64,000 nt of DNA from Microbacterium sp. (GTDB lineage: Bacteria > Actinomycetota > Actinomycetes > Actinomycetales > Microbacteriaceae). A program made the position numbers and the translations under genes. This document shows, piece after piece, positions 41,103 to 49,893 of the stretch; the stretch's first letter is position 1; every line of letters starts with the position of its first letter. The stretch is taken from assembly GCA_019510305.1 (NCBI GenBank), contig JAEKKN010000020.1, positions 47,511 through 111,510 on the forward strand, read 5' to 3'. A model generated the notes under the pieces. It was not told the DNA's origin. It made no database searches and saw nothing but the letters and a program-made list of their open reading frames with translations.

Positions 41103-41241
41103 GCACCCAGGGTGTGCGTTCGAGGTGAACGGCAACCAACGGTCGGATAGCCGGTGACCGGCGTTCCAGCATCGGGTGAACATCTGGTGCCCTGCCCCGT
41201 TTCCGCACGCCGGGTGCTCGTGGCGGCGGCATTCTGAGGGT

Positions 41242-43179
41242 GTGAGAGTCGCGATCGTGACAGAGTCCTTCCTTCCGCACATGAACGGTGTCACCGGATC
41301 CGTGCTGCAGATCCTGAAGCACCTCGAACGCTCCGGGCACGACGCCCATGTCATTGCGCCCGCTGCTGCGGGCATCCCAGCCGCTATGCACGGCGCGGCC
41401 GTGGAGGCGATCCCGAGCCTCGCCCTTCCGGGATACCGGAACGTGCGGGTCGGCACGTCTCCTGCGCACCGAGTGGCGGCCTCGCTCCGCCGATTCCAGC
41501 CGGACGTGGTGCACCTGGCGTCGCCGTTCGCGCTGGGGTGGCGCGGCGTGCTCGCTGCCGACCGGCTGGGCGTGGCATCCGTCGCCGCCTATCAGACCGA
41601 TGTGGCCGCCTACACCGAGCGCTATCGAATCGCCGCGACCACGGGCATCGCCCAGACCCATATCGCTCGGCTGCACCGCCGGGCCACGCTCAGCCTCGCC
41701 CCCTCGAACGAATCGGCGCAGCAGCTCGCGGGGCTGGGCGTGGATCGAGTGCGACGCTGGGGCAGAGGAGTGGATGCGGAGCGATTCCATCCGTTGCGAC
41801 GCGATGACGACCTGCGCGCCGAGTGGGGCGCCGAGGTGGTGATCGGCTACGTCGGGCGGCTCGCTCCGGAGAAGCAGGTGGAGGACCTCGTGTCTCTGCG
41901 CGGCATCCCCGGTGCTCGTCTCGTGATCGTGGGCGACGGGCCGAGCCGGCAGCGCCTCGAGACCCTGCTGCCCGATGCCGTGTTCCTCGGTCATCTCGAT
42001 GGCGAGGCGCTCGCCGCAGCGATCGCCTCGTTCGACCTGTTCGTGCACCCCGGGGAGAGCGAGACGTTCGGGCAGACGCTGCAGGAGGCGCACGCCAGCG
42101 GGGTACCGGTCATCGCCACCGGACGAGGCGGTCCTCTCGACCTCGTGCGCATGGGGATCGATGGCTGGCTCTATCGGCCGGGCGACCTCGATGACCTCCG
42201 GATGCGGGTGAACGACCTCGCAGGCGACGCGCGCAAGCGCAGGGCGTTCGGCGAAGCGGGAAGAGAGGCCGTGCAGGGACGCAGCTGGGCGAAGGTCTGC
42301 GATCAGCTGCTCGGACACTTCGATGAGGCGAGGATGCTGAGCACCGTGGACCGCAGCCTGCGCGCTCGCCGCGTCGTGCGGCCGGAGACGTCGGCGCCGG
42401 TCACCGAGGCGCGCTGGCAGCGGTACGTCGCATTGGGCGATTCGCTCACAGAGGGGCTGTGCGATCCCGCGCCTGACGGTGCGCTGCGGGGGTGGGCCGA
42501 CCGGCTCGCTCTGCTGCTGGCCGCGCGTGGCGGTCTGCACTACGCGAACCTCGCGATCAGATCCAAGCGGGTCGCCGACGTGTGCGGATCCCAGCTCGAG
42601 CGCGCGCTGCAGCTTCAGCCCGATCTCGTCTCGATCCTCGTCGGGGCGAACGATCTGGTGAAGCACCGTGCAGACGTCCCTGCGCTCGCTCGTCAGGTGG
42701 AGGATGCGATCGGGCAGCTCCGCGCCGGCGGAGCTGACGTGCTGCTGGTCACGCCGTTTCTGCCCGGCAGGCGGGCGGCGTCGATCTACACCCGGCGCTT
42801 CTCCGCCTTCGCGACCGCGCTCGCCGGGGTCGCCGCGCGCACGGGTGCGATCCTGATCGACACCGATCTGCACCCGACGCTGCGGGAGCGGCCGAACTGG
42901 GGTGAGGACCTCGTGCATCTGAGCAGCCGGGGGCACCGCTTCCTCGCCTACCGGGCGGGCGAGATCCTCGCCGTGCCGCACGCCGACGCCCTCGGCGCTC
43001 TCGACGCCGCTCTGCACGAGCACGAGCCGATCGGAGCAGGGCTCTGGTGGCGTCGGCACGCGCTGCCCTGGGTGTGGCGGCGTCTGCACGGCCGGGCCGC
43101 CGGCGACGGGCGCGCCGCCAAGCACGACGGGTACGTCTACCTCGGCCGCTCGAACGTCAGACGCGACGTGGAGGTGTAG
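41242..43179 (+). CDS. glycosyltransferase family 4 / SGNH hydrolase fusion
   Basis: A 645-aa cytosolic two-domain protein from GTG 41242. Residues 1-~375 are a GT4 glycosyltransferase of the MgtA/PimB type: RVAIVTESFLPHMNGVTGSV, GYVGRLAPEKQVEDL, GDGPSRQRL, and the donor-site motif HPGESETFGQTLQEAHASG. Residues ~390-645 are an SGNH/GDSL hydrolase with block I GDSLTEG (Ser401), block III GANDLV and catalytic D556-L-V-H559. Each half alone is ordinary; joining them in one frame suggests coupled transfer and deacylation of a glycolipid or glycan. UDP-glucose dehydrogenase is convergent. Confidence 0.88.
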   Translation: MRVAIVTESFLPHMNGVTGSVLQILKHLERSGHDAHVIAPAAAGIPAAMHGAAVEAIPSLALPGYRNVRVGTSPAHRVAASLRRFQPDVVHLASPFALGWRGVLAADRLGVASVAAYQTDVAAYTERYRIAATTGIAQTHIARLHRRATLSLAPSNESAQQLAGLGVDRVRRWGRGVDAERFHPLRRDDDLRAEWGAEVVIGYVGRLAPEKQVEDLVSLRGIPGARLVIVGDGPSRQRLETLLPDAVFLGHLDGEALAAAIASFDLFVHPGESETFGQTLQEAHASGVPVIATGRGGPLDLVRMGIDGWLYRPGDLDDLRMRVNDLAGDARKRRAFGEAGREAVQGRSWAKVCDQLLGHFDEARMLSTVDRSLRARRVVRPETSAPVTEARWQRYVALGDSLTEGLCDPAPDGALRGWADRLALLLAARGGLHYANLAIRSKRVADVCGSQLERALQLQPDLVSILVGANDLVKHRADVPALARQVEDAIGQLRAGGADVLLVTPFLPGRRAASIYTRRFSAFATALAGVAARTGAILIDTDLHPTLRERPNWGEDLVHLSSRGHRFLAYRAGEILAVPHADALGALDAALHEHEPIGAGLWWRRHALPWVWRRLHGRAAGDGRAAKHDGYVYLGRSNVRRDVEV

Positions 43180-44899: not shown

Positions 44900-47182
44900 T
44901 TGGAAGGTCCTGAAATCACCGCCACCGAGGCCGTTCTCGACAACGGCCGCTTCGGCACCCGCACCATCCGCTTCGAGACCGGCCGCCTCGCGCAGCAGGC
45001 TCAGGGCGCAGTCGCCGCGTACCTCGACGGCGAGACCATGCTCCTCTCGGCCACCAGCGCAGGCAAGCACCCGCGCGAGGGCTTCGACTTCTTCCCGCTG
45101 ACGGTCGACGTCGAAGAGCGCTCCTACGCCGCGGGCAAGATCCCCGGCTCGTTCTTCCGCCGCGAGGGACGCCCGTCCACCGAGGCGATCCTGGTCTGCC
45201 GTCTGATCGACCGCCCGCTTCGTCCGTCGTTCGTCGACGGACTGCGCAACGAGGTCCAGATCGTCATCACCGTGCTGTCGATCGCACCCGGCGAGTTCTA
45301 CGACGCGCTGGCGATCAACGCGGCCTCCGCGTCGACCCAGATCTCGGGCCTGCCGTTCTCCGGCCCCGTCGCCGGTGTGCGCCTCGCGTTCATCCCCGGC
45401 CACGGCGAGCACGCCGATCAGTGGGTCGCGTTCCCGACCGCCGAGCAGGTCTCGGAGGCCGTGTTCGACCTGATCGTCGCCGGTCGCGTCGTCACGAAGG
45501 CCGATGGCTCTGAAGACGTCGCGATCATGATGGTCGAGGCCGAGGCGACCGAGGGCAGCTGGAACCTCATCAAGGCCGGCGCCACCAAGCCGAACGAGGA
45601 GATCGTCGCGCAGGGACTCGAGGCATCGAAGCCCTTCATCGCGCAGCTCGTCAAGGCTCAGGCCGAGCTCGCAGCGACCGCGTCGAAGGAGCCGGGTGTG
45701 TACCCGGTCTTCCCGGCGTACAGCCAGGAGGTCTACGACTTCGTGGCCGGCCGGTCCTACGACGAGCTGGTCGGGGTCTACCAGATCGCCGACAAGACCG
45801 AGCGCCAGACGGCCGACGACGCGATCAAGGACCGCGTCAGGGCTGAGCTGATCGAGGCCACCGAGGCGGGTTCGCTTCCGGCGGGGGCTCCGCTCGAGTT
45901 CTCCGCGGCGTACAAGTCGGTCACGAAGAAGATCGTGCGCGGACGCATCCTCACCGAGGGCGCTCGCATCGACGGTCGCGGCCTGGCGGACATCCGTCCG
46001 CTCGACGCCGAGGTGCAGGTCATCCCGCGTGTGCACGGCTCCGCGATCTTCCAGCGCGGCGAGACCCAGATCCTGGGCGTCACCACGCTGAACATGCTCA
46101 AGATGGAGCAGCAGATCGACTCGCTGTCTCCGACGACGAGCAAGCGCTACATGCACCACTACAACTTCCCGCCGTACTCGACCGGTGAGACCGGCCGCGT
46201 CGGTTCGCCGAAGCGTCGCGAGATCGGGCACGGCTTCCTCGCCGAGCGCGCACTCGTTCCGGTTCTGCCGAGCCGCGAGGAGTTCCCGTACGCGATCCGT
46301 CAGGTCTCCGAGGCGCTCAGCTCGAACGGCTCGACCTCGATGGGCTCCGTCTGCGCCTCGACCCTGTCGCTGCTGAACGCGGGTGTGCCCCTGCGCGCTC
46401 CCGTCGCCGGCATCGCGATGGGTCTCGTCTCCGACGAGGTCGACGGCGAGACGCGCTACGCGGCGCTGACCGACATCCTGGGTGCCGAGGACGCTCTCGG
46501 CGACATGGACTTCAAGGTCGCCGGCACGAGCGAGTTCGTCACGGCGATCCAGCTCGACACGAAGCTCGACGGCATCCCGTCGTCGGTGCTCGCCGGCGCG
46601 CTGACCCAGGCCCGCGAGGCTCGTCTGACGATCCTCAACGTCCTGAACTCCGCGATCGACGCGCCTGACGAGATGGCGCCCACCGCGCCGCGCGTCATCA
46701 GCGTGCAGATCCCGGTCGACAAGATCGGCGAGCTGATCGGCCCGAAGGGCAAGACGATCAACGCGATCCAGGACGAGACCGGTGCGCAGATCTCCATCGA
46801 GGAGGACGGCACCGTCTACATCGGCGCGACAGACGGCCCTTCGGCCGAGGCTGCCCGTGCCCAGGTCAACGCGATCGCCAACCCGACCAACCCCGAGGTC
46901 GGCGAGCAGTTCCTCGGAACCGTCGTGAAGATCGCCACCTTCGGCGCCTTCATCTCGCTGCTTCCTGGCAAGGACGGCCTGCTGCACGTCACCGAGGTGC
47001 GCAAGCTCGCCGGTGGCAAGCGCGTCGAGAACGTCGAGGACGTCCTGTCCGTGGGTCAGAAGATCCTCGTGAAGATCACGAAGATCGACGATCGCGGCAA
47101 GCTGTCGCTCGAGCCCGTGCTCGACGAAGCTCCGGCTGCCGAGGCTGATGCCGCTCCGGCTGAGGACGCTGCAGCCGAGTAA
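44900..47182 (+). CDS. pnp: polynucleotide phosphorylase
   Basis: A 760-aa 3'-to-5' phosphorolytic exoribonuclease and RNA-tailing enzyme. Two RNase PH-like domains are present (first ~15-225, second ~335-550 with [12 protein letters not shown] and [23 protein letters not shown]). The KH domain holds [29 protein letters not shown], and the S1 domain begins [27 protein letters not shown]. The start is TTG 44900, supported by AAGGAG at 44887-44892 and by family homology beginning at [15 protein letters not shown]. The rare start may keep translation modest, in line with autoregulation. Confidence 0.97.
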
Positions 47183-47194
47183 GCACCGCTGACA

Positions 47195-47237
47195 CGACAG
47201 AACCCGGGCCTCGCCGAGCGAGGTCCGGGTTCTGTCG
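47195..47237 (+). terminator. pnp terminator
   Basis: Long inverted repeat CGACAGAACCCGG ... CCGGGTTCTGTCG with an inner CCTCGC/GCGAGG stem, 12 bp after the pnp stop. Confidence 0.85.
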
Positions 47238-47393: not shown

Positions 47394-48425
47394 ATGATGC
47401 GGTTGTTCAGCGTAGGCGCAGGAGCGTCCGTCGAACGTGCACAGCACGGGGCGGCTGAGCATCCGTCTGCGCCCATCCCGATCGTGGGGGCCGGTGTCGG
47501 CGAGACCGTGAGGGTCGCGCTGGGAGAGACCGGATTCGAGACCTTCCCGCTCATGCTGGGCGCCGCCGAGTTCGGTTGGAACGTCGACCTCGAGACCAGC
47601 CACGGCATTCTCGACCGCTACATCGAGTTCGGCGGCAACGCGATCCACACGGCCGACGGATTCTCCGGCGGTCGCAGCGAGCACATCATCGGACAGTGGC
47701 TGCGCTCACGCGGACACCGGGAGCGCACGCTGCTGAGCGTGCGCATCGGCGCACATGCCGACAACCCGGGTCTCGGCTCGGTGAACCTGGTCCGCGCCGT
47801 CGAGGGCTCGCTGACCCGTCTGGGCGTCGAGCGCATCGACGTCCTGTACCTCGACGCGACACTCGACGCGACGACGAACCTCGAAGACACCCTCGCGACG
47901 GTCGAGTGGCTCGTCGAGGCGGGCAAGATCACGACGGTCGGGGCTTTCGGATTCAGTCCCGAGAGGCTCGTCGAGGCGCGCATCCTGGCGTCCGCCGGCT
48001 ACCCGCGCATCGAAGTGATCGACGCTCCCTACAACCTCATCCGACGACAGCCGTTCGAAGGCGATCTGCGCCTCGTCGCGGGGGCGCAGAACCTCGCGGT
48101 CACGCCTTCGCACGCGCTCGAGCACGGCTTCCTCTCCGGGCGCCATCGCAGCAAGGCGCTGGCCGCTCAGGGCGTGCGCGGCGAGCAACTGCGCAGCCAC
48201 TTGAACCGCCGAGGAATCAAGATCCTCCGGGCTCTCGACCAGGTCGCGACCGAGCTCTCAGTGCCGGTGGCTGCGGTGTCGATCGCCTGGCTGCTCGCTC
48301 AACGGACCATCGCGGCGCCGATCGTGAACGCCTTCGCGAGCGACCACGTCGACGAACTGATGCAGGGCGCAGGGGTGACGCTCTCGCGTGCGCATCTGGC
48401 TGATCTGACCCGAGCCGGCATCTGA
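47394..48425 (+). CDS. aldo/keto reductase-like protein lacking the catalytic tetrad
   Basis: A 343-aa protein from ATG 47394 with GGGGGTGA upstream. The (alpha/beta)8 AKR fold is clear: LGAAEFGWN, SVNLVRAVEGSLTRLGVERIDVLYL, AGKITTVGAFGFSPERL. But every tetrad position is changed. The usual Asp of DTA is His85 (IHTAD), Tyr is Phe90, Lys is Arg117 (LLSVRIG) and His is Asp154 (VLYLDAT); the D-to-Y spacing of five is kept. It is probably not a reductase but a binding or regulatory pseudoenzyme. It sits between pnp and dapB, where other actinobacteria often carry an M16 peptidase. Confidence 0.85.
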   Translation: MMRLFSVGAGASVERAQHGAAEHPSAPIPIVGAGVGETVRVALGETGFETFPLMLGAAEFGWNVDLETSHGILDRYIEFGGNAIHTADGFSGGRSEHIIGQWLRSRGHRERTLLSVRIGAHADNPGLGSVNLVRAVEGSLTRLGVERIDVLYLDATLDATTNLEDTLATVEWLVEAGKITTVGAFGFSPERLVEARILASAGYPRIEVIDAPYNLIRRQPFEGDLRLVAGAQNLAVTPSHALEHGFLSGRHRSKALAAQGVRGEQLRSHLNRRGIKILRALDQVATELSVPVAAVSIAWLLAQRTIAAPIVNAFASDHVDELMQGAGVTLSRAHLADLTRAGI

Positions 48426-48504: not shown

Positions 48505-49107
48505 GTGACGCATTACATTTATCTGGTCAGACATGGTGAACATCAAGACGCCGAGCACGGTCTCGCCGACGGACCCCTTTCACCTCGGGGGCAGCGACAG
48601 GCCGAACTGATCGCCGATCGTCTGTCGGGTCTTCCTCTCGATGCGGTCTGGCATTCTCCGCTGCTGAGGGCCAACGAGACGGCCCGCGCGATCGCGGCCC
48701 GGTTGCCGTCGGTCGACCCCGAACCCACTGCGCTGCTGTTCGATTGCGTGCCCACGGGCATGACGGAAGAGACTCCGGCGGTGTTCGAGCCGTTCTTCGG
48801 AGCGGTGACGGATGCCGAGATCGAAGCAGGTCGGGCGCAGATGGCCGATGCTGTGAACGAATTCCTCGTCCGCAAGACCGGCGACGTGCACGAAGTGCTC
48901 ATCACTCACAACTTCGTGATCTCCTGGTTCGTGCGCGAGGTGCTCGGGGCTCCCGAGTGGCGCTGGATGACCCTCAACCAGGCCCACTGCGGGCTCACGG
49001 TCATCGCGCAGAAGCAGGGTCGCCCGTGGACGCTGCTGACGCACAACGACACCGGCCACCTGCCCGTCGAGCTGCGCACCGGCATCCCCGACGGCATGCC
49101 GGTCTGA
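48505..49107 (+). CDS. histidine phosphatase family protein
   Basis: A 200-aa phosphoglycerate-mutase-like phosphatase. The phospho-accepting RHGE is at residues 9-12 (YLVRHGEHQD), followed by LSPRGQRQAELIADRL, WHSPLLRANETA, and the second catalytic His in VLITHNFVISWF. The GTG start at 48505 fits the homology. Candidate substrates range from sugar phosphates to phosphoproteins. It has no strong link to the neighbours, although it lies within the conserved pnp-dapB block. Confidence 0.9.
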   Translation: MTHYIYLVRHGEHQDAEHGLADGPLSPRGQRQAELIADRLSGLPLDAVWHSPLLRANETARAIAARLPSVDPEPTALLFDCVPTGMTEETPAVFEPFFGAVTDAEIEAGRAQMADAVNEFLVRKTGDVHEVLITHNFVISWFVREVLGAPEWRWMTLNQAHCGLTVIAQKQGRPWTLLTHNDTGHLPVELRTGIPDGMPV

Positions 49108-49152: not shown

Positions 49153-49893
49153 ATGACAACGCGCGTGGCCCTCGTCGGCGGTACCGGCAAGCTCGGGCAG
49201 ATCATCCACGCGGTGATCGACGACCTCGAGGGGTTCGAGGTGAGTCGCGTGCTGACGTCGTCGAGCGATCTCTCCGAGATCGACGGCGCAGACCTCGTCG
49301 TCGACGCGTCCACACCGCAGATCAGCATCGACGTCGTGCGCGCAGCGGTCGAGCGCGGCATGAACGTGCTCGTCGCGACCTCCGGCTGGTCGGCCGAGCG
49401 CATCGCGCTGGTCCGCCCGCTCGTCGAGGCCGCCGGCACGGGCGCCGTCTTCATCCCGAACTTCTCGCTCGGCTCCGTCCTGGGCACGGCCCTGGCGGCG
49501 GCCGCTGCGCCGTTCTTCGGTTCGGCTGAGATCGTCGAGGCGCACCACGAGTCGAAGATCGACTCGCCCAGCGGCACCGCAGTGCGCACTGCGGAGCTGA
49601 TCGCCGCGGCGCGCGCCGAGCAGGGTCCGGTGAGCGCCCCGCACGCCGACCAGCGCGCGCGAGGACAGCAGGTCGGCAGCGTGCCGATACATTCCCTGCG
49701 CCGCCCCGGCGTCGTCGCCAAGCAGGAGGTCATCCTGTCGGGGCCCGGCGAATCGCTCACATTCACGCACGACACGGTCGAGCCCGCCAAGGCGTACGCC
49801 CCCGGCATCCGTCTCGCCCTGCCATTCGCTCTGCACGCGGAGGGCGTCGTCGTAGGGCTGGAGAACATGATCGACATCGGCATCCGCTCGTGA
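49153..49893 (+). CDS. dapB: 4-hydroxy-tetrahydrodipicolinate reductase
   Basis: A 246-aa NAD(P)H-dependent enzyme of the lysine/meso-diaminopimelate pathway. The N-terminal dinucleotide motif is VALVGGTGKLGQ. The catalytic region is EIVEAHHESKIDSPSGTAVRT (His-His and Lys of the family signature E-x-H-H-x3-K-x-D-x-P-S-G-T). It works one step after DapA, encoded 5 kb downstream. The stop overlaps the start of the next gene. Confidence 0.96.
   Translation: MTTRVALVGGTGKLGQIIHAVIDDLEGFEVSRVLTSSSDLSEIDGADLVVDASTPQISIDVVRAAVERGMNVLVATSGWSAERIALVRPLVEAAGTGAVFIPNFSLGSVLGTALAAAAAPFFGSAEIVEAHHESKIDSPSGTAVRTAELIAAARAEQGPVSAPHADQRARGQQVGSVPIHSLRRPGVVAKQEVILSGPGESLTFTHDTVEPAKAYAPGIRLALPFALHAEGVVVGLENMIDIGIRS

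Follow-up and report, generated by a model that had tools for sequence, protein, structure and literature searches.

The window, a stretch of 64,000 nucleotides from a Microbacterium genome, contains between pnp and dapB a gene for a protein that has the fold of an aldo-keto reductase (AKR) and lacks the catalytic residues of one. This raises the question of whether the gene is a relic in decay or has been kept by selection for a different role, and which role that would be.

Locus and fold of the AKR-like protein

The gene is located on the forward strand at positions 47394..48425 and encodes a protein of 343 amino acids. The open reading frame opens with two Met codons, and the alignments of many relatives begin at the second (47397). 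Upstream lies pnp (44900..47182, + strand), the gene for polynucleotide phosphorylase with Pfam domains RNase_PH, PNPase, KH and S1. A gene for a protein of the histidine phosphatase superfamily, here called hisP (48505..49107, +; PF00300), follows 79 bp downstream, and next is dapB (49153..49893, +; PF01113, PF05173). Among the Microbacterium-clade loci, the gap between the AKR gene and hisP measures 47-142 bp. The closest named locus is that of Microbacterium hydrocarbonoxydans SA35 (96% identity). The gene's own genome contains nine other AKR matches, all much weaker; the five that could be read (L002-L006) have Asp and Tyr at the first two tetrad positions.

A scan for promoters and terminators listed none. 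Shortly 3' of pnp, at window positions 47200-47232, there is a hairpin of 15 pairs (one of them G-T) with a 3-base loop, which has no T run behind it and does not appear in the terminator-scan listing. It may mark the end of pnp transcripts, in which case the AKR gene could have a promoter of its own. Upstream of pnp, at window positions 41176-43179 (+), a single frame of 667 amino acids encodes both a group-1 glycosyltransferase (residues about 37-364) and, at residues 419-588, a GDSL-like lipase/acylhydrolase domain.

PF00248 (aldo/keto reductase) is the sole Pfam family matched (131.7 bits versus a curated cut-off of 24, E 3.8e-38), and the match, of residues 53-339 to positions 2-287 of the 291 in the profile, assigns the protein to the AKR superfamily. 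Five AKR models of NCBIfam match as well, all far under their cut-offs. The structure predicted from 43 Microbacterium-clade sequences is an eight-stranded alpha/beta barrel (mean pLDDT 75.8, pTM 0.77; pLDDT below 50 at residues 1-33, 243-246 and 248-269), and the best 50 matches listed by Foldseek are all AKRs, in line with the sequence-only reading, which had the fold retained. The top match is 7utf_A (TM-score 0.76 by query length), by its title a deoxynivalenol-detoxifying AKR. Together with DepB (8hwn), which we take to belong to the same detoxification pathway, 7utf is the best match in both sequence and fold, but both of these proteins keep the aligned Asp, Tyr and His, whereas the window protein has none of them. 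Kv-beta (AKR6; 1zsx, TM-score 0.79 by query length) is a further structural neighbour with an AKR barrel. Kv-beta has a regulatory role, binds NADPH and keeps the tetrad; the window protein, in contrast, has its tetrad replaced and reaches only 49.6 bits against the cut-off of 365.4 for the NCBIfam model TIGR01293 (Kv_beta), which places it outside the Kv-beta/AKR6 group.

Replacement of the tetrad and of the nicotinamide contacts

We mapped the tetrad by alignment to solved AKRs (DepB, 7utf, 4xk2) and to members of the family from Microbacteriaceae, including homologs at the same locus. The Asp/Tyr/Lys/His of functional AKRs corresponds to His85, Phe90, Arg117 and Asp154 in the window protein, which bears out the coordinates, reading frame and residue numbers of the sequence-only reading. 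The pairwise alignment with AKRtyl alone has a one-residue gap adjoining residue 154, which would move this position by one; 84 family loci and DepB place Asp154 on the catalytic His.

These 84 loci from other Microbacteriaceae largely keep the tetrad and were compared with 132 Microbacterium-clade loci, from which two divergent copies were left out and among which a few are named no further than family or phylum yet lie inside the clade, and some strains, kept in two collections, are counted twice (as also in the 138 rows given below). The catalytic Asp site (47646..47648, +) is His in 130 of the 132 loci and Asp in 82 of the 84 others; the Lys site (47742..47744, +) is Arg in all 132 versus Lys in 81; and the His site (47853..47855, +) is Asp in all 132 versus His in 80. 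At the Tyr site (47661..47663, +), Phe is found in 112 loci, Tyr in 18, and Asp and Trp in one each, versus Tyr in 79 of the 84. In effect, the Asp and the His of the tetrad have swapped places, with Lys changed to Arg and Tyr to Phe, and a replacement on this scale is far beyond chance. After later additions, 138 rows read HFRD (113), HYRD (21), HDRD (2), TDRD (1) and YWRD (1), so that Tyr is retained at position 90 in about one row of seven, and the statement that all four residues are replaced holds for the window strain and most of Microbacterium. On a tree of 46 rows (44 of them counted), position 90 changed between Phe and Tyr at least 8 times, from which we conclude that the phenol is dispensable.

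The change extends to the cofactor site. AKRtyl (AKR12D; 8jwk-8jwo, 8xr2-8xr4) resembles the window protein in fold (TM-scores 0.71-0.78 by query length among the matches listed) and in sequence (8.6e-21). In AKRtyl, according to its report, the single change Y53F abolishes activity, the nicotinamide stacks on Trp214, and the carboxamide contacts Ser160, Asn161 and Gln186 (PMC10923870). The window protein differs at Tyr53 and His130, both of which AKRtyl uses, and at all four of these contacts: Ser160, Asn161 and Gln186 correspond to Phe185, Gly186 and Asp210, and Trp214 to Ser239. With the four tetrad sites and these four contacts taken together, 8 of 8 positions differ. Gln186 falls in a two-residue insert of the pairwise alignment, and its match to residue 210 is fixed by the family alignment, which has Gln or Glu there. 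Phe185-Gly186 (47946..47951, +) is represented in the 132 loci by Phe in 98 and Tyr in 21 at the first position and by Gly in 106 at the second. Position 210 (48021..48023, +) is Asp in 131 of the 132, compared with Gln in 58 and Glu in 14 of 78 ordinary rows; position 239 (48108..48110, +) is Ser in all 132, and Tyr (36), Arg (34), His (6) or Cys (2) in the 78. At the nicotinamide positions, Ser, Asn/Asp, Gln/Glu and Tyr/Arg prevail among ordinary family members. The cofactor belt is kept in part, with Arg at residue 250 in 106 of the 132 loci versus Lys in 63 of the 78 ordinary rows.

Two further polar residues mark the genus. Glu59 (47568..47570, +), right behind the first barrel strand, is present in 130 of the 132 loci, and Asn312 (48327..48329, +), at the end of the eighth, likewise in 130; neither occurs in any of 84 ordinary rows, and Asn312 recurs in all five rows of genus g58, discussed below. 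We called a column diagnostic if 80% or more of the Microbacterium clade share a residue that no more than 5% of the 84 ordinary rows have, and 27 columns qualified. The ordinary rows have a uniform tetrad by construction since rows with changed tetrads (g58, g26, three of g79, L143) had been removed. Of the 27 columns, 15 lie at the C-terminal ends of model strands, versus 39 of 295 columns overall (Fisher p 2.6e-8); with the tetrad excluded, the figures are 12 of 23 versus 36 of 291 (p 1.1e-6). This test was run after a stricter and weaker one, confined to columns that are conserved on both sides and differ, in which 8 of 21 lie at strand ends (p 0.0025; 0.0007 to 0.08 over 12 settings and two backgrounds). 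Leaving out the tetrad columns reduces this to 5 of 18 (p 0.056). In AKRs, the barrel mouth is formed by the C-terminal strand ends. Judged from their strand-end placement in the predicted model and from this layout, the new residues would meet at the barrel mouth.

Retention in Microbacterium and origin of the change

An ortholog (E<=1e-60) is present in 116 of 119 sampled Microbacterium genomes, without an internal stop in any of the 116 listed matches, and 118 of 119 keep a copy when divergent ones are included. In genome G103, an AKR copy of 40% identity with the tetrad H-D-R-D lies between pnp and hisP; in G043, a copy with the same identity and tetrad lies ahead of hisP-dapB, about 2.8 kb past pnp. 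The divergent Microbacterium copies, of about 40% identity, correspond to loci L226 (from a genome shared with L239) and L254. In G057, hisP comes directly after pnp and there is no AKR gene at the locus, which does contain pnp, the phosphatase gene and dapB, the last cut off at the edge of the locus. G103, G043 and G057 form one group in the pnp tree (support 98), which suggests that a single branch of Microbacterium has relaxed constraint on the AKR gene or lost it; the gene is therefore dispensable.

Selection on the gene is purifying. The median pairwise dN/dS is 0.23, compared with 0.20 for dapB, 0.12 for pnp and 0.11 for hisP, which makes the AKR value about twice those of pnp and hisP; the figures, from 600 random pairs of the 132 loci with dS of 0.15 to 1.5, are rough because synonymous sites are near saturation. 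Given this selection and the retention across the genus, we reject decay, as the sequence-only reading had done. In sequence, the protein has the marks of a pseudoenzyme, as a homolog of enzymes whose catalytic residues are gone and whose gene is kept by selection; a lack of the ancestral activity would be predicted.

Matches at E<=1e-50 were found in 204 of 299 Microbacteriaceae genomes, Microbacterium counted in. In other families of the order, all 12 best-matching loci examined, chosen by sequence match alone, have D-Y-K-H. Within Microbacteriaceae, genera g44 and g34 (L122, L123, L132, L135, L136, L166) have an ordinary tetrad in the order pnp-AKR-hisP, followed by dapB where found. The orthologs L122, L123, L132 and L135 share the whole pnp-AKR-hisP-dapB neighbourhood and about 47-50% identity with the window protein, but theirs is the Asp/Tyr/Lys/His tetrad. 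The position is therefore older than the residue change, and we reject the tie to pnp as its cause. The suggested role in RNA turnover or cell-wall precursor synthesis has only this position in its favour.

In most other family loci with hisP found, the AKR gene and hisP are about 1.4-2.8 kb apart (extremes 0.9 and 3.0). The remark in the sequence-only reading that many actinobacteria carry an M16 peptidase after pnp is apt in so far as in one such locus, L187, the interval holds an M16 peptidase gene and one opposite-strand frame, and as PF00675 (M16 peptidase) matched in none of nine Microbacterium genomes searched, the window's own included (G000, G001, G010, G031, G089, G100, G057, G043, G103), although numerous relatives have this peptidase. 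It does not extend to the tetrad. PF00675 was present in one of six tested g34/g44 genomes and in all five tested genomes of g58, g9 and g26, with matches in 9 of the 14 genomes of the control set. As five of the six g34/g44 genomes, with an ordinary AKR, are also without PF00675, we reject a coupling of tetrad loss to M16 loss.

A tree of 65 proteins unites the 18 Microbacterium rows in a single clade (100/100) with a long stem of 0.87 changes per column; a larger quick tree agrees, with the divergent L226 inside. With the replacement genus-wide and the ordinary tetrad found in the family, at many loci in the same pnp-hisP-dapB neighbourhood, the change would most simply have occurred once, on the Microbacterium stem. 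Locus L209, from a genome of another genus (G217, 66% complete), has an ordinary-tetrad AKR behind a pnp whose place in the tree is within Microbacterium and which is 91% identical in DNA to the pnp of L039, over the pnp gene only; neither hisP nor dapB was found at this locus. Transfer of pnp would account for the mixture, as would a chimeric contig.

Other genera of the family have altered tetrads as well. Genus g58 (L174, L220, L227, L228, L229), with the pnp-AKR-hisP locus, has V-H-R-E in three rows and V-H-R-Q and V-H-H-E in one row each; g26 (L189, L230, L231) has D-V-T-R in all three; in g9, L143 has D-A-K-D and its congener L168 D-Y-K-H; and g79 has D-F-K-H in three of five. L173 is DYKH by multiple alignment, tblastn letters at gapped places being unsafe. 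The AKR tree places g58 with L143 and L168 (96/85), within a clade that holds ordinary members (98/99). Holding Microbacterium and g58 together was not rejected (AU p 0.137; 0.138 with L143 added), nor was it in the pnp tree (p 0.124), from which 7 of 49 rows were dropped because pnp was too short in the locus, including the window's own, both of g44 and three of four of g34; for Microbacterium and g26, the constraint was weakly rejected (p 0.030). Of the 27 diagnostic residues, g58 shares 5 with Microbacterium, L143 6, g26 2 and g79 2. Since the ordinary rows L180 and L182 share similar numbers (5 and 4), this overlap is weak by itself. We favour, with reserve, a separate origin of the g58 change, and the reductase tetrad of this gene was probably lost several times.

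Possible roles of the protein

There is a good case for a selected new role. Our preferred explanation, which we consider somewhat probable, is that the protein is a pseudoenzyme with a regulatory or carrier role: a redox-dead AKR-fold protein, kept by selection, whose rebuilt polar mouth binds a small charged molecule that is not NADP(H). Its ancestor would be an NADPH-dependent aldo-keto reductase of the ordinary Microbacteriaceae type at the same locus. On the stem of Microbacterium, hydride-transfer chemistry would have been lost through the Asp/His to His/Asp exchange and the change of Lys to Arg, leaving Tyr free to vary with Phe; the nicotinamide contacts would have been replaced while the barrel was retained. 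The polar residues that are newly conserved (E59, H85, R117, D154, D210, S239, N312) lie at the C-terminal ends of the strands. From the residues lost, we infer that the present protein neither binds NADP(H) nor has reductase activity. That it now functions by binding a ligand in the mouth, without redox turnover, and what this ligand is, are guesses. Several observations sit less easily with this explanation, namely the weakness of the stricter clustering test, the Tyr retained in 18 of 132 loci, the partly kept cofactor belt (R250), the dispensability of the gene and its dN/dS, roughly double the values for pnp and hisP, and the poor modelling of residues 243-246 and 248-269.

The main rival is a new enzyme, in which H85, R117 and D154, with E59, D210, S239 and N312, would catalyse a non-redox reaction, for instance an acid-base or metal-assisted one whose substrate is a metabolite with a phosphate or carboxylate group. 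The strand ends, where TIM barrels place their active sites, hold nearly invariant polar residues that could serve in catalysis, and most g58 rows have a set that resembles this one in part (R117, acidic 154, acidic 210, N312); Pfam and NCBIfam, however, return AKR families only, and the neighbourhood offers no pointer to a substrate, and we hold this reading to be unlikely though well worth considering. A wider scenario, which we put forward tentatively and hold to be about as unlikely, is that the AKR barrel was converted to a new non-redox active or ligand site, with Asp and His exchanged and a set centred on E59/D210/S239/N312 in place of the nicotinamide contacts. Genus g58 would have undergone a similar conversion separately at the same locus, and one chromosomal AKR would have been recruited repeatedly to a shared new function. 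The likeness of the g58 conversion lies in an Arg at the Lys site, an acidic residue at the His site, a Gly at the Asn161 site and Asn312.

The sequence-only reading had also offered an NADP(H) sensor, which in the manner of Kv-beta would bind the cofactor without efficient turnover. The barrel is kept together with some of the belt residues, and Kv-beta is among the structural neighbours, but the replacement of all four nicotinamide contacts named for AKRtyl weakens the idea, as does the low Kv_beta score, and we regard NADP(H) sensing as improbable. A scaffold or partner of an adjacent gene product (PNPase, the phosphatase or DapB), for which the pocket would be irrelevant, draws on the genus-wide conservation of the locus; this is marginally less probable again, given that the position predates the residue change, that the diagnostic residues of the genus cluster at the barrel mouth, and that G057 has pnp, the phosphatase gene and dapB with no AKR gene at the locus. 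A relic decaying under relaxed selection would account for the missing copy in G057, the divergent copies in G043 and G103, with which it groups in the pnp tree, and the dN/dS of about twice that of pnp. It is very hard to reconcile with a copy in nearly every genome, the stop-free matches, the median dN/dS and the invariance of R117 and D154 in 132 loci.

A pseudoenzyme from a known superfamily is a known kind of protein. Among the matches listed from open-licence PMC, by titles and abstract openings, we found neither a report on this gene nor one on an AKR pseudoenzyme from bacteria, and, within that scope, no genus-wide AKR case with ordinary relatives at the same locus. The family name 'aldo/keto reductase' can mislead on activity. 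Within one gene, nature provides a series from ordinary reductases through partly changed tetrads (DFKH, DAKD, DVTR) to a conserved, genus-wide replacement, which makes it testable how a cofactor-dependent barrel converts and which function merits keeping in 118 of 119 Microbacterium genomes.
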